Source of the DNA: Gelidibacter sp.
Lineage (GTDB): Bacteria > Bacteroidota > Bacteroidia > Flavobacteriales > Flavobacteriaceae
DNA: 47,541 bases
Direction of reading: 5' to 3'
NCBI GenBank assembly: GCA_010906935.1
Contig: JAAFHC010000007.1
Location: forward strand, 1 to 47,541
Shown here: positions 13,976 through 42,908 of the stretch, one piece after another
Position numbering within the stretch: position 1 is the first letter of the stretch
How the letters are laid out: each line of letters opens with the position of its first letter
Program-made: the position numbers and the translations under genes
The notes under the pieces: generated by a model
Seen by the model: the letters and a program-made list of their open reading frames with translations, nothing else
What the model was told of the DNA's origin: nothing
The model's database searches: none

Positions 13976-14851
13976 ATGTATACTAAACCAATGCTAAAAG
14001 AAGGAAGTTTAAAAGATCAAGTCATTGTTGTAACAGGCGGCGGCAGCGGTTTAGGCAAAGCCATGACCACTTATTTTTTAGAACTTGGCGCTCACGTTGT
14101 CATCACTTCTAGAAATATGGAGAGATTAGAAAAAGCCAAGATAGAATTAGAAGAAAAAACTGGAGGAACCGTTTTGGCAGTGCAATGTGATGTAAGAAAT
14201 TACACCGAAGTTGAAGCTGTTTTACAGGCAACATTGGATAAATTTGGGAAAGTTGATGGACTTTTAAACAACGCCGCAGGTAATTTTATCAGTCCGACTG
14301 AACGCTTGTCGGCCAATGCTTTTGATACCGTTATTGACATTGTTTTAAAAGGAAGCAAAAATTGCACGCTGGCATTTGGAAAGCATTGGATAGACATCAA
14401 ACAACCAAAATCAACCATTTTAAATATTGTAACCACTTATGCGTGGACCGGATCGGCTTATGTTGTTCCATCAGCAACGGCGAAAGCGGGAGTTTTGGCC
14501 ATGACGCGCTCTTTGGCTGTTGAATGGGCAAAATACGGCATTCGATCCAATGCTATCGCTCCAGGACCGTTTCCTACTGAAGGCGCCTGGGACCGATTGT
14601 TGCCTGGCAATTTGAAAGATAAATTTGACATGAAAAAGAAAGTTCCTGTTGGCCGAGTTGGAGAACATCAGGAATTGGCGAATTTGGCTGCTTATTTAAT
14701 GAGCGATTTTTCAGCCTATATTAATGGAGAAGTGATTACTATTGATGGCGGTGAATGGTTAAAAGGTGCCGGAGAATTTAATATGCTTGAAGATGTTCCT
14801 AAAGAAATGTGGGATATGCTGGAAATGATGATTAGAAGCAAAAAAAAGTAA
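13976..14851 (+). CDS. SDR family oxidoreductase (2,4-dienoyl-CoA reductase-like)
   Basis: 291 aa; VTGGGSGLGKA, NNAAGNF, C-terminal YINGEVITIDGG. Confidence 0.9.
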   Translation: MYTKPMLKEGSLKDQVIVVTGGGSGLGKAMTTYFLELGAHVVITSRNMERLEKAKIELEEKTGGTVLAVQCDVRNYTEVEAVLQATLDKFGKVDGLLNNAAGNFISPTERLSANAFDTVIDIVLKGSKNCTLAFGKHWIDIKQPKSTILNIVTTYAWTGSAYVVPSATAKAGVLAMTRSLAVEWAKYGIRSNAIAPGPFPTEGAWDRLLPGNLKDKFDMKKKVPVGRVGEHQELANLAAYLMSDFSAYINGEVITIDGGEWLKGAGEFNMLEDVPKEMWDMLEMMIRSKKK

Positions 14852-14876
14852 ATAGTTCATTTTTGTAGCTGTTAAT

Positions 14877-16124
14877 ATGAAAGCTAAAATTTATCGAGGG
14901 ACAAAAGAAATCGGTGGAACTTGTGTAGAATTAACCGCAGATAATGGAAAAATTCTTTGGGTTGACCTTGGCGCTCCACTTGATGACAAAAATCCGAATA
15001 TAAGTTATACCGACAATAAAGTAGACGCACTATTAATTTCACACCCACATCAAGACCACTTCGGACTAATGGAAAAGGTGGGGACTGACGTCCCCATTTT
15101 CATTGGTGAAGTTGCTCTTGATTTTATTAATGCGACAAAATTATTTATTAACGAGCCTCAATTAAAAGGGAATTATAAAACAATAAAGCCTTGGCAAACC
15201 TTTACAATTTGTGACACTTTCGTTGTAAAATCTTTTTTGACCGACCATTCAACACCTGAAGCATTTGCATTTTTGATTGAAGCTGACGGAAAGAAAGTTT
15301 ATTATAGTTGTGATTTTAGAGCAACAGGTAGAAAAAAAATAGTGTACGATAAAATAGTAGCCTCTCCTCCAAAAGATATTGATTTATTTTTGATTGAAGG
15401 CACTATGGTAGAACGTGCAAATCACATTTACTTGACCGAAGAAAGTGTTGAAGAAGGAATTTTTCAGGTTATCAAAAATCAAAGGAATGTTTCTTTTGTA
15501 ATAAGTTCAGCACAAAATATTGACCGCTTGATTTCAATAATTCGGGCTTGTAAAAAAACGGGGAAGAAAGTTGTAATTGATGTTTACACAGCGTGGCTTT
15601 TAGAAATGCTCCATAAACAGTCAAGCAATGTTCCAACAATGGATTGGGGAGAAATTAAAGTATTTGAGCATCCAAGTCAAATGGAAAGAATTGCAGAAAA
15701 ATCATTTGACGATTTTCGTGCAAGAATAAAAGTAAACAGTGTTGGTAACGCAGTTTTTAATGTTCCGTCCGACTTCATTTATTTTGTTCGTAATCCAAGT
15801 ATGAAATTAGTTAATGAGTTAAGAAAACACGGAAAAATAAATATCATTTATTCGCAATGGGAGGGATATTTAAAAGAAGAACATAAACAATACTTCACGG
15901 ACAATATAAATGCTTTAAAACAAGATAAAGATATTTCATATCATTCAATACACACAAGCGGACACGCAACCGTACCTGACTTAATGAAGTTTGCAAAAGC
16001 AATTAATTCAAGTAAAATTGTTCCTATACATACAGCTTTCCCAAAAAAATTTAAAATAGAATTTGAAAAAGAAGGATTTGCGAACATTGCACTTTGGGAT
16101 GATGGAAAAGAATATAAAATATAA
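14877..16124 (+). CDS. MBL-fold metallohydrolase, RNase J-like (beta-CASP type)
   Basis: 415 aa; EIGGTCVEL, SHPHQDHFGL (HxHxDH), C-terminal HTSGHATVPDLMKF and IVPIHTAFP. Confidence 0.85.
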   Translation: MKAKIYRGTKEIGGTCVELTADNGKILWVDLGAPLDDKNPNISYTDNKVDALLISHPHQDHFGLMEKVGTDVPIFIGEVALDFINATKLFINEPQLKGNYKTIKPWQTFTICDTFVVKSFLTDHSTPEAFAFLIEADGKKVYYSCDFRATGRKKIVYDKIVASPPKDIDLFLIEGTMVERANHIYLTEESVEEGIFQVIKNQRNVSFVISSAQNIDRLISIIRACKKTGKKVVIDVYTAWLLEMLHKQSSNVPTMDWGEIKVFEHPSQMERIAEKSFDDFRARIKVNSVGNAVFNVPSDFIYFVRNPSMKLVNELRKHGKINIIYSQWEGYLKEEHKQYFTDNINALKQDKDISYHSIHTSGHATVPDLMKFAKAINSSKIVPIHTAFPKKFKIEFEKEGFANIALWDDGKEYKI

Positions 16125-29381: not shown

Positions 29382-29975
29382 TTAAATTAAAGTTCTTTTT
29401 GTGTAACCGTCGTATACTTGTGAAATAATTTGTTGTTTAATTCCGTAGTCAAAAACAATTTCATCTCTAGAAAAATACTCACTTAAAAAAATTGAATAAG
29501 ATGAAAAAGTAATTGAGTCTAAAATAAAGTATGAAATCAAGAAAACTTTATAATTGATATTTAGATTGAAATAAGATGGAACAGCAAATAAAAGACTTAT
29601 CAGAATAATAAATGTTAACAATCTATTCCTCCAAAAAATAATTACTATAGTATTTAATAACCATGTTATCGGTAGAACTAATAAGAATTTATATTCCCAA
29701 AAAGCAATTAACATGTAGAGCATATAGATTACTGCTCCAAAGAGTTTAATATTTCTTATACCATTGTAAAAACCATAGTTTTGACTACTTAAAAACTCCT
29801 TTGCTATTTTAGAATCAAAAGTAAAATTTAATTTTATTTTACCTAATTTAATCGCTTGCCTTAAATCATCAAAATCTTTAATTTTAATATGATTTTCACC
29901 AAATATTTCAGGAACAAGGTTTTCAAATTGATTAAAATCAATTTTATCTAAAAACTCTTCAGTTTCTTTGCTCAT
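29382..29975 (-). CDS. hypothetical membrane protein
   Basis: Minus-strand ORF with several TM stretches; the track start (30041) is a TTG inside a repeat, whereas ATG at 29975 (MSKETEEFLDKID) is more plausible. Confidence 0.65.
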   Translation of the reverse strand: MSKETEEFLDKIDFNQFENLVPEIFGENHIKIKDFDDLRQAIKLGKIKLNFTFDSKIAKEFLSSQNYGFYNGIRNIKLFGAVIYMLYMLIAFWEYKFLLVLPITWLLNTIVIIFWRNRLLTFIILISLLFAVPSYFNLNINYKVFLISYFILDSITFSSYSIFLSEYFSRDEIVFDYGIKQQIISQVYDGYTKRTLI

Positions 29976-29991
29976 AATTTTCGTATTGAGT

Positions 29992-30075
29992 GGTTGTAGC
30001 AAATTGATTTGTTGACTGTTTGTGAGTTTGTACCAGTTCAAATTTAAGCATAAATTATATGCGGCTTTGTTGTCC
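29992..30075 (-). repeat. cassette-type intergenic repeat, copy B
   Basis: Minus strand GGACAACAAAGCCGCATATAATTTATGCTTAAATTTGAACT..CAAACAGTCAACAAATCAATTTGCTACAACC directly after the stop of the 30076 gene; aligns with copy A. Confidence 0.75.
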
Positions 30076-30591
30076 TTAGTTATTTTTCCTTTCTAATTGT
30101 TTAATTTTGTATTCGGTCAATTCTATTTTTTTACTTGTTTTAGTAATGAAATTCAACTGTTTAGGTGTAATTGGACCTTTTCCAGATTTTTCAAGTTTAT
30201 ATTGCATTGAACTAAAAGAATATCCATTATCTAATGATTCGTATTCAGCGTTTAATCTTTCTAATTGATTTATATGGAGTGCCATTTCTGCAATCCTTTT
30301 TTGGGTATCAGTAATATTATTTATTGAGTTTGAAAGAATACCTTCTTTTAAAGTTTCGTAATAAAGTTTAATAACTTTATCATACCTATCTTCAAAGTAA
30401 TTTGGTGTCCGATCTGCTGCTATTGTCAAAATGCAATATCTTAAAAGTTTATCAACTCCTTTTTTGTTTTTTACATATTTTTTTTTCAAAAAATCAAAAT
30501 CAATATCTTTACTAAAAATATCAATAGTGGCATTTTTCAATATTTTTCTAATTATTCTATTTTCGAAATATTCTTTTATTCTTTCAAGCAT
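30076..30591 (-). CDS. hypothetical protein
   Basis: 171 aa ORF, charged/helical. Confidence 0.65.
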   Translation of the reverse strand: MLERIKEYFENRIIRKILKNATIDIFSKDIDFDFLKKKYVKNKKGVDKLLRYCILTIAADRTPNYFEDRYDKVIKLYYETLKEGILSNSINNITDTQKRIAEMALHINQLERLNAEYESLDNGYSFSSMQYKLEKSGKGPITPKQLNFITKTSKKIELTEYKIKQLERKNN

Positions 30592-30696
30592 TTATTTAAA
30601 TAATTTTATTTTTTACTGTTCGCCGGTTTGCTAATTTTTATTAAGCACAACGGTTTTGTAAATGATTTGTGTGACTGGAAAATCGGAGATTTTTCG

Positions 30697-30777
30697 GTTG
30701 TAGCAAATAGCTTGTTGAATGTTTGTTGGTTTATATTTAGTTTAAATGTAAGCATAAATTATATGCGGTGTTAGGCA
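30697..30777 (-). repeat. cassette-type intergenic repeat, copy A
   Basis: Minus strand TTGCCTAACACCGCATATAATTTATGCTTACATTTAAACT..CAAACATTCAACAAGCTATTTGCTACAACC immediately after the stop of the 30781 gene. Confidence 0.75.
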
Positions 30778-30780
30778 ATG

Positions 30781-31284
30781 TTAAGATTTAAATAATTTTA
30801 AATTCTCGATATGATTATAATGTGTATCAATTTTGTTTGCAATAATATATTCATATATAAAATCTATTATTTCATTTTGAAGTTCTATATGCTCTTTTAT
30901 AAAATTCGAGTAACTCATTTTAGTCAATTTTCCATCTGAATTTGTTTTAAATATTACATCACTTACCAATATCTTAATAGTGTTGGAATTGGTAATATCA
31001 TCATCTACTTCTACGCTTTCTGTTCTATTGCTGTGAGCAAAGACATTTCGATTAGTAGAAAGGTCCCTAATTTTTTTAATTTGAGTTTTATCAAAAATAT
31101 TTAGATTAATTAGAATTTTAAGTTTTGCTCCAAAGTCGACTACTTTTGGATTTAATATATAATCTAAAAAGAATGGTTTGTCTTTCGGTTCGATATTGTG
31201 TGTTATTATTAAACTTATAAATAATTCTATTTCGTTAAATACGTGTAAGGATTTACCTAGATTTACATATGTTTCTTCTTTCAT
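30781..31284 (-). CDS. hypothetical protein
   Basis: 167 aa ORF; KIRDLSTNRNVFAHSNR. Confidence 0.7.
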   Translation of the reverse strand: MKEETYVNLGKSLHVFNEIELFISLIITHNIEPKDKPFFLDYILNPKVVDFGAKLKILINLNIFDKTQIKKIRDLSTNRNVFAHSNRTESVEVDDDITNSNTIKILVSDVIFKTNSDGKLTKMSYSNFIKEHIELQNEIIDFIYEYIIANKIDTHYNHIENLKLFKS

Positions 31285-31464
31285 AATAATTTCAGTTTAA
31301 TTTTGCCTAACTTGATATATCCTCATAAAAATGTAATTTACCACATTAATGCTTTTGGATAACTGCGTTTTAATCAGATTTCAATTTTTATTTAAATGTA
31401 CTATAATTTTCCAATTAAAAAATATATAGAAGTAGAAAGCTCAAATATGTATTTGAAAAACTCT

Positions 31465-37572: not shown

Positions 37573-37637
37573 AAACACCCCAAATAGAACATCTTAAAAA
37601 TCCGCTTTTTGCGGATTTTTTTGTATTATTGTTTTAA
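37386..37637 (+). repeat. left direct repeat (dnaN 3' end + terminator)
   Basis: About 252 bp nearly identical (about 4 differences by eye) to 43012..43263. Confidence 0.95.
37596..37622 (+). terminator. Rho-independent terminator of dnaN
   Basis: aaaaatccgc-ttttt-gcggattttttt. Confidence 0.88.
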
Positions 37638-40114
37638 TCTAAATTGACATTAATCTCATATATAAAATCTTTATCTAAAACCTTAATATTTGTTGCTAAA
37701 TTTGTTGAAAGTATGAAATCCATAATATTCATTTCAAGAGCTCTATTACCAACATTAATTGATAAATAATGATTCTTTCTTTCTTCTTTAATCAAGTATT
37801 CAACAAATAATTCAACACATTTAACTCTTTTTTCCATAGGTCTCTTTCCGTATGCATCAGGAGAAGTAAAATATTTTGAAATTTCCGCAAAATATCCTTC
37901 ATTGAAAATAGGTGTATCTTGAAGAACTAAATCAAAATAATAAAATTCTGTGACAATATTTTTCGCATAATAAATTCCACTCTGTGTTACGGTAATTTGG
38001 AAGTTTGTAATATCATCCGGTAATTCCTGAACATCAGAAATGTAACTTTCACAATTTATTAATCCATACTTTAATAATTCTATTAACTCTTCCATTAAAA
38101 TTTCTTTATTATATCCACATTTTACAAATGATTCAATTAATTTTTCTGTTGGAATATAATGCTCGCGATATGAAGTTGATTCTGCTTCATTTATTAAATA
38201 ATATAGTATTCTAAGCTTTGTAAAATGATTATTCCCATTAACTGAAGGATGAAATAAATTATAAATTTTACTTCTTGTATGTAAATAGTAATAATTCGAT
38301 TCTAAAGCAACAGACTTAATAAACTCCCAAATTGGTATATTATAATCATCATAAGTCATATATGTCTCAACTTTCGTATGACCAGACACTAAGAAGCTAT
38401 TAAATTTTTCTAATCCAAGTCTAATATTCGGATAAGATGTTTGTTCCAAAAATTCTAAAATTTCAGAATTTTTTCTTTTAAAAAGAGTTTTATATAGATT
38501 CTGAAAAAATACGGCTTGCGACTCATCGGTTAATTTAAATGTCTTATTCTCTACTTTACCTTCTGTATTCTTAAAATCATGAATGTCAACAACATATTGA
38601 ATCCTCTTTTTCAGTACTTCTCGATAGGATGGTGCTGTAATATGAAAAATATTAGGTTGAAACGCATCGAAAGGAGGCTTATCTTTCCATTGATAAAAAT
38701 ATCCTTCTCTTAGTGAAATAATAATAATACATCTTAAATTTAGATGAATACTTTGGGATAGTAAAAAAGCTTCTTTTTGAATTGAAAAATCTAATTGATC
38801 AACATTATCAAAAATGACACACAATCTCTTATGGCATGGATTAATTAGATATTCAGATATTGATTTTAAATGTTCTTCAGGTTTTGAAATCCTATGCTCA
38901 ATAAATTCGTTAATCTTTTCTTCAATAACATCTGGGCTATTTCGATATATTGACCATAAGCCTCTTTCTGTATTTAATTTAATTTCTTTTTTGTAAATTG
39001 TTTTAAGTATATTATAATCATTAAGTTTTAGACTACTTTGAGTTTCATATAATAAATTAAGAATTTTTTGATAAATGTATTTTGGATCTTTAATTTGATT
39101 TGAAGTTATAGATCTAAAATCCATATAGATACTTGGTATTCTTTTTTTAGTTTCTTCCTTTAAAGAAACTTTAAAAAAATAATTAATAAAAGTTGTTTTA
39201 CCAGCCCCTTTACCCCCAATTAAAATAATTGGGTTTGGCAAACTAAAAGTACTGTCTAATAGTCTACCTTCTATAGCATCTTGAGTATTAATTGTATTTC
39301 TAACCCCGAAAACTCTTTCATCAAATTTTGGTGGAGAATCTTGGAACATCAAACTCATTTCTGAATGATGTTTTTCAACGTCTTTATTAAAAACATAACA
39401 TTCATTTAATGTATCAATATCTATTAATTCTGAAGTATTATTAATTTCTCTAAATATTACATCAATTATACGAATTAACTTATCACTCAATTCGTTTCTA
39501 ATTAATTTCTCGTTTTTTCTTTTAAGATTTGAAAGTGATATTAGTTTCTTTGAAAATATTGTTTCTTTTTTAATCTCTATCAAACCCTTTTTCTTAACTG
39601 ATTCAAAAGATAGTAATTCATAAAATTCAATAAATCTCTTTTCAATATCATCGAAACCATCAAAAATTATAGCTTGGTTATTCCTCCATTCTTCACCATT
39701 AAAATTTATAAATTGGGAAATAATAAATTGGTGCCCATTAGAGATAACGCCAATTGGTAAACCCTTTTCAATTAAATAACTTCTTATTTGAGATATAACT
39801 TCTTCATTTGAAGTATCAGTTAAAAGAGTTTTTAATTTTATCCTATTTCCGCTCGGAAGTTTCAATTGAACAAATGTCTTTTTTGCTTCAATAACAAATG
39901 AAAATAAACCGGTTGAAATTAAATAATCATAGAAACCTGTATTAGTTAAATAATCTTCACGTGAAATATTTACTTCCTTCCATCCTAAAATCTCAATAAA
40001 TATCTTATCTAAAATTTTACTCCTTGTGTCAGTTTCTGAGATTTTTGAATTTTTCAATTCTTCAAATTCACTTTTAAATTTGTAAAACATTTCTAACGAT
40101 TCATCAATTCCCAT
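37634..40114 (-). CDS. P-loop NTPase with N-terminal restriction-endonuclease-like domain (candidate defense protein)
   Basis: 826 aa; N-terminal DYLTNTGFYDYLISTGLFSFVIEAKK (D...ExK), Walker A ILIGGKGAGKTTFINYF, Walker B-like RLCVIFDNVDQLD. Confidence 0.72.
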   Translation of the reverse strand: MGIDESLEMFYKFKSEFEELKNSKISETDTRSKILDKIFIEILGWKEVNISREDYLTNTGFYDYLISTGLFSFVIEAKKTFVQLKLPSGNRIKLKTLLTDTSNEEVISQIRSYLIEKGLPIGVISNGHQFIISQFINFNGEEWRNNQAIIFDGFDDIEKRFIEFYELLSFESVKKKGLIEIKKETIFSKKLISLSNLKRKNEKLIRNELSDKLIRIIDVIFREINNTSELIDIDTLNECYVFNKDVEKHHSEMSLMFQDSPPKFDERVFGVRNTINTQDAIEGRLLDSTFSLPNPIILIGGKGAGKTTFINYFFKVSLKEETKKRIPSIYMDFRSITSNQIKDPKYIYQKILNLLYETQSSLKLNDYNILKTIYKKEIKLNTERGLWSIYRNSPDVIEEKINEFIEHRISKPEEHLKSISEYLINPCHKRLCVIFDNVDQLDFSIQKEAFLLSQSIHLNLRCIIIISLREGYFYQWKDKPPFDAFQPNIFHITAPSYREVLKKRIQYVVDIHDFKNTEGKVENKTFKLTDESQAVFFQNLYKTLFKRKNSEILEFLEQTSYPNIRLGLEKFNSFLVSGHTKVETYMTYDDYNIPIWEFIKSVALESNYYYLHTRSKIYNLFHPSVNGNNHFTKLRILYYLINEAESTSYREHYIPTEKLIESFVKCGYNKEILMEELIELLKYGLINCESYISDVQELPDDITNFQITVTQSGIYYAKNIVTEFYYFDLVLQDTPIFNEGYFAEISKYFTSPDAYGKRPMEKRVKCVELFVEYLIKEERKNHYLSINVGNRALEMNIMDFILSTNLATNIKVLDKDFIYEINVNLD

Positions 40115-42476: not shown

Positions 42477-42908
42477 ATGAAACAATATAATTCATTCGTC
42501 GGTAATTTTAATGATAAAAGGATAAACATATATATTCTTAAAGAATTATTAGAAGTCAATTATCAGTTTGATAGCTTATTAGAATTAATTAATTTTCAAA
42601 ATCTAAGTGAAAATTTTGAATTTAATATTTTAAATAAGTTCATCTTAATAATTAAAAATTCTAAAGAAGAAATATACTTGGTTTTATCAAATGATTTTAA
42701 GACAATCAAATGCTTAAACAAGTTAATCAGATATTCAAATAAAGAGAATAGTATTATTGTTTTCGATTCAACCATTGTTTTAAAAGAATTCAATAATGTT
42801 CACTACATTAATCAAGAAGATTGGATGAATAGAATAATTAGCAATGGAATAAATCAAAATATTTTAAACCTACAATTTATAAGAGATTTAGATTTTAGGA
42901 TAGCTTAA
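42477..42908 (+). CDS. hypothetical protein
   Basis: 143 aa ORF downstream of the UDG-like gene in the same orientation. Confidence 0.55.
   Translation: MKQYNSFVGNFNDKRINIYILKELLEVNYQFDSLLELINFQNLSENFEFNILNKFILIIKNSKEEIYLVLSNDFKTIKCLNKLIRYSNKENSIIVFDSTIVLKEFNNVHYINQEDWMNRIISNGINQNILNLQFIRDLDFRIA

Follow-up and report, generated by a model that had tools for sequence, protein, structure and literature searches.

Stray gene cassettes in a Lutibacter-like flavobacterium point to an apparently overlooked integron of marine Bacteroidota

Introduction

Integrons are natural gene-capture devices. Sedentary chromosomal integrons combine an integrase gene (IntI), an attI site beside it, and gene+attC cassettes that run in one direction and mostly carry short genes of unknown function. 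Cassettes are exchanged at GTT, the complementarity of the core arms is restored in the excised cassette, and the attC sites fold preferentially on the bottom strand. Where at least two attC sites lie close together without an integrase beside them, the cluster is termed a CALIN element. Published definitions of the integrase require the extra domain specific to IntI (PMC2426708, PMC9668308), although this insertion is not fully conserved in an "integron-like" recombinase subgroup (PMC8138268). In the Bacteroidetes proper, IntegronFinder 2 reported a complete integron only in Salinibacter ruber (PMC9024848). In a flavobacterial context, a CALIN has been described in Polaribacter phage P12002L, and one of its attC sites was recombined by IntI1 (PMC9892861); no integrase was described there, and the element was not linked to a flavobacterial integron.

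Here, we analyzed a 47,541-nt stretch of DNA from a Lutibacter-like flavobacterium (contig JAAFHC010000007.1, assembly GCA_010906935.1; hereafter the window), in which a first-pass annotation had noticed two unknown genes, each followed by the same ~80 bp repeat, and had read them as attC-bounded, CALIN-like cassettes without a visible integrase.

Results

Two repeat-flanked genes with complementary cassette ends

Inspection of the ORFs and repeats confirmed both genes and both repeats. The ~80 bp repeat is the left part of a ~130 bp attC-like element, of which the first copy is complete and the second is truncated at position 29992. The features of the locus are as follows:

31298..31311 (-), start of cassette 1, with R'' core GTTAGGC and the extended arm GTTAGGCAAAATTA; no attC or attI body lies upstream, so this is an off-site junction
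30781..31284 (-), gene of cassette 1, 167 aa, unknown protein with an RNVFAH (R-x4-H) motif
30645..30776 (-), attC1, complete 132-nt attC-like element from GCCTAAC to GTTGTGC
30076..30591 (-), gene of cassette 2, 171 aa, unknown protein with a weak match to the PADLOC candidate PDC-M30B (E 0.0064)
29992..30075 (-), attC2, truncated to the left ~77 positions of the element and starting with R' GGACAAC; the right half is lost
29382..29975 (-), third gene, 197 aa, membrane-protein-like, lying directly after the truncated attC2, without an attC of its own and absent at the syntenic place in relatives; its membership is uncertain

The protein of cassette 1 gave no Pfam, PADLOC, or NCBIfam match. 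The two attC sites are 704 nt apart, and no recombinase gene is present among the ORFs of the window. GTTAGGC (31311-31305) and GCCTAAC (30776-30770) form a perfect 7-nt complement, and the match extends further, with GTTAGGCAAAATTA against the reverse complement GTTAGGCAATGTTA (30770-30783). GTTGTGC (30651-30645) and GGACAAC (30075-30069) extend likewise, with GTTGTGCTTAAT against GTTGTCCTTAGT and the same A/G step at position 11. With one mismatch allowed, these are the only two such pairs on the minus strand of the whole window, whereas 0.02 would be expected in the local 3 kb. However, both arm pairs carry one mismatch and the second attC is truncated, so this copy may be dead.

The same genome holds at least 16 copies of the element by BLAST and about 20 by nhmmer (E 8e-30 for attC1), on at least nine contigs, and 37 of 38 genomes of the genus contain it. 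The element has no match in Rfam, and DNA similarity searches of plasmids and phages gave no match.

A complementarity rule spans each cassette

In an integron cassette, the 3-prime core of the site in front of a gene must be complementary to the 5-prime core of the site after the same gene, because the two meet in the excised circle. To examine this, we compared the cores in Lutibacter arrays. Of 97 gene-bounding pairs, 46 match perfectly over six variable bases, against 1 of 106 within one element and 0 of 90 when one site is skipped, while shuffling gives 1.2 on average and 6 at most. About half of these pairs, found with one attC model, were not perfect, which is explained in part by further attC types and by IS insertions. 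The match is longer than the classical 7-bp core, covering 10 nt plus a fixed A/G step and 2-3 more nucleotides: GTT-N7-A-TTT matches the reverse complement of AAA-C-N7-AAC, with 3% identity at the step and 88% at the next position.

A single-path chain parser of arrays broke off early because attC types vary and cassettes were interrupted, and it was replaced by pair counting. A loose 10-mer pair count gave little contrast to shuffles. We therefore applied the strict rule with the A/G step downstream of the integrase in 20 loci of other genera. This yielded 137 pairs on the array strand, 1 on the other strand, 0.2 in shuffled sequence, and 0 in 276 strand-kb of non-integron control loci.

In relatives, the elements form long one-directional arrays, with 39 sites in ~100 kb of one species (G010) and 42 in ~60 kb of another (G002). 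Of 44 ORFs between sites, 41 lie on the array strand, the median length is 165 aa, and most stop codons lie 9-30 nt before the site. PADLOC and Pfam scans of ten G002 cassettes returned mostly unknown proteins and no clear defence genes. Reconstituted attC sites from relatives fold more stably on the bottom strand in 43 of 43 cases (mean -18.7 against -13.1 kcal/mol; mean z -4.1). By inspection, further attC types have different sequences but the same arm layout, with unequal spacers and co-varying inner arms. In the G010 array, a 1.31-kb IS481-like insertion sequence (rve transposase) is repeated at L078:5846-7159 (L numbers denote extracted loci) and about nine further places (L077-L082), with many copies starting about 12-15 nt after an attC GTT, which suggests a target preference for attC.

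In relatives, the arrays begin at an attI beside a tyrosine recombinase

Where the contig continues past a ~390-aa tyrosine recombinase gene, the array usually lies downstream on the same strand, although two long loci without nearby elements (L190 and L191) are exceptions. Many assemblies end just after this gene, as repeats would cause. A conserved motif, ATATAACNA|GTT, lies just after the stop codon in most loci. Everything after GTT is unique, and in eight Lutibacter loci the ten bases from GTT are exactly complementary to the end of the first cassette (10/10). The same attI is present in 28 of 28 top-scoring loci of other genera but at none of 12 loci of canonical IntI. Several loci outside the family (L266, L272, L273, and L275) also show an attI-like motif or a rule pair. 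At one locus (L250), the first rule pair downstream of the integrase occurs twice (36 to 917 and 36 to 1674), suggesting a tandemly duplicated first cassette.

Exchange of cassettes between species is inferred from near-identical cassettes in different contexts. Cassettes that are 94-99.3% identical occur in species whose integrases are far less alike, and identity starts at GTT and ends at the next GTT. One cassette is first after attI in another species, G008, and mid-array in G002. Moreover, a cassette shared by G010 and G002 shows a compensatory change in both arms.

The recombinase differs from IntI

The recombinase keeps the tyrosine-recombinase catalytic residues (Pfam PF00589, 129.7 bits) and a C-terminal SPxD motif. 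However, representatives aligned with Bacteroidota IntI lack the IntI-specific insertion of about 40 aa near patch III and carry an N-terminal extension of ~95 aa. It scores 198.5 bits on the IntI model TIGR02249 (cut-off 265) and 212.5 bits on NF040815 (cut-off 220), and 0 of 38 genomes of the genus exceed the IntI cut-off. In the tree it forms one clade (99/99), as does IntI (100/100; PDB 2a3v), but their sister relation is weak (81/64), with long branches. XerA/XerC/XerD recombinases (NF040815; PDB 5hxy) are closest by sequence and fold search and share the core-binding and catalytic domains. Nevertheless, the gene is not a chromosome-dimer resolution gene, as separate Xer genes exist in the same genomes and this one heads a cassette array.

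The AlphaFold model of the full integrase is poor (pLDDT 54) and could be interpreted only for the N-terminal domain (pLDDT 82.6). The top structural matches of the predicted N-terminal domain are the SMARCAL1-HARP and XPB structures 4o66 and 5tnu (probability 0.97 and 0.87), probably structure-specific DNA-binding domains, but at sub-threshold E values (0.08-0.11).

In 398 Bacteroidota genomes, canonical IntI is common (109) but does not pass the cut-off in any sampled genome of the window's family, whereas the recombinase described here, or a related one, is present in 94 of 301 genomes of that family (Flavobacteriaceae) at E below 1e-70.

The window locus

The order DnaN, PIG-L-like gene, SSS (sodium-solute symporter) transporter, gap, DUF2911-like gene is conserved across Lutibacter. 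The gap is 73-170 bp in several species and holds unrelated genes in others, and none has the element; the window cassettes are therefore a lineage-specific insertion or remnant. An exact empty site was not found because the close relatives carry another gene there. This gene, of ~277 aa and BRO-N-like by eye (L134, L136, L139, and L141), occupies the very gap where the window has cassettes, so the gap may be an insertion hotspot.

No ~390-aa integrase was found in this draft genome, and it is absent from the site where one relative (G011) has it, although the absence may be real or reflect an assembly gap. The best hit in the draft is a 367-aa frame at contig C260, whose relatives have no array nearby. 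The 347-aa recombinase of the same genome (C260; L025:196-1239), also present at L175-L179, has a similar N-terminal domain, but no sites lie near it in five relatives. Decayed remnants of it seem to lie upstream of the integrase at locus L187.

Discussion

Our analysis supports the cassette reading of the first-pass annotation, with the corrections that the terminal complementarity extends beyond the 7-bp core and that the system is not simply a classical integron that lost IntI, because its integrase belongs to a different, insertion-less tyrosine-recombinase clade. We consider it very likely that the window holds a small off-site, CALIN-like cluster of two cassettes belonging to a family-wide Bacteroidota integron with four parts: a ~390-aa tyrosine recombinase gene; an attI shortly after its stop codon; a one-directional array of gene+attC cassettes downstream; and strand-asymmetric attC sites. 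Compared with sedentary chromosomal integrons, the recombinase lacks the IntI-specific insertion, the cassette arms are ~14 bp with a fixed T.G step rather than 7 bp, attI is short, and the integrase gene reads into the array.

We propose that the integrase excises a cassette as a circle between two attC sites, in which the cassette's own GTT-N7-A-TTT start and AAA-C-N7-AAC end become the two arms of one attC hairpin. In this model, the bottom strand folds preferentially because the fixed position pairs as T.G there but is an A.C mismatch in the top strand, and the folded bottom strand is inserted at attI, or at another GTT, with exchange at GTT. In the absence of experiments, single-stranded recombination, the role of this integrase in it, and the reading of folded DNA by the N-terminal HARP-like domain in place of the missing IntI insertion are inferred.

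How the cluster reached its present position is less clear. It may have been inserted off-target at a GTT between the symporter gene and the DUF2911-type gene. Alternatively, a piece of an ancestral array may have moved away by rearrangement and lost its integrase, a possibility that we regard as tentative. Two consecutive cassettes, the truncated second attC, and the scattered sites on many contigs of this draft are consistent with rearrangement, whereas the bare GTT at the upstream boundary, with no attC or attI remnant, and flanking genes that are the ancestral neighbours in ~18 relatives suit insertion.

It is very unlikely that the cassettes belong to a classical integron whose intI was lost and are recognised by ordinary IntI from elsewhere. 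IntI1 can recombine an attC of phage P12002L (PMC9892861), and canonical IntI does occur in Bacteroidota. However, the arrays sit next to a different recombinase in 20 genera, and true-IntI loci lack this attI and this arm rule in the ~1.5 kb examined. It is equally unlikely that the ~390-aa recombinase is a bystander and that cassettes are moved by XerC/XerD or another recombinase. Although Xer proteins are present in all these genomes and functional proof is lacking, the recombinase is at the head of the array, on the same strand, with attI directly after its stop codon in dozens of genera. Ordinary dispersed 3' repeats of a terminator-like or REP-like family, suggested by the hairpin (GAAAAATC..GATTTTT) and the closeness of the sites to stop codons, are rejected because the complementarity spans the gene rather than the element, is unique per cassette and strand-specific, and because the arrays start at attI beside a recombinase and cassettes appear to be exchanged between species.

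We found no report of this integrase type among open-licence PMC papers, a search that did not cover preprints, and relatives without the insertion may have been classified in the "integron-like" subgroup (PMC8138268) without array evidence. Because integron surveys look for IntI with its extra domain, the system appears to have been overlooked; the presence of a related recombinase in about a third of sampled Flavobacteriaceae genomes would make integrons a common gene-capture system in a major marine lineage. It would also test whether the IntI insertion is really required for recombining folded attC sites, and the arm rule offers a simple way of finding cassettes whatever the attC sequence. 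It is possible, although less likely than not, that integrons arose, or were rebuilt, on a second recombinase scaffold, in which an insertion-less Xer-like enzyme reads folded single-stranded attC DNA through an N-terminal HARP-like domain, in a phylum where many such platforms went unrecognised.

Elsewhere in the window, an 826-aa AAA-type NTPase with a nuclease-like N terminus by eye (37634-40114) and a protein with a weak DpnII match (42477-42908; E 0.028) mark a possible defence region. In phage P12002L (KR136259), a perfect arm pair at 14632-15197 brackets the hypothetical gene P12002L_0024, a lone minus-strand gene in a plus-strand block that is followed by an attC-like site, suggesting a probable cassette in a lytic phage, apart from its methyltransferase region.
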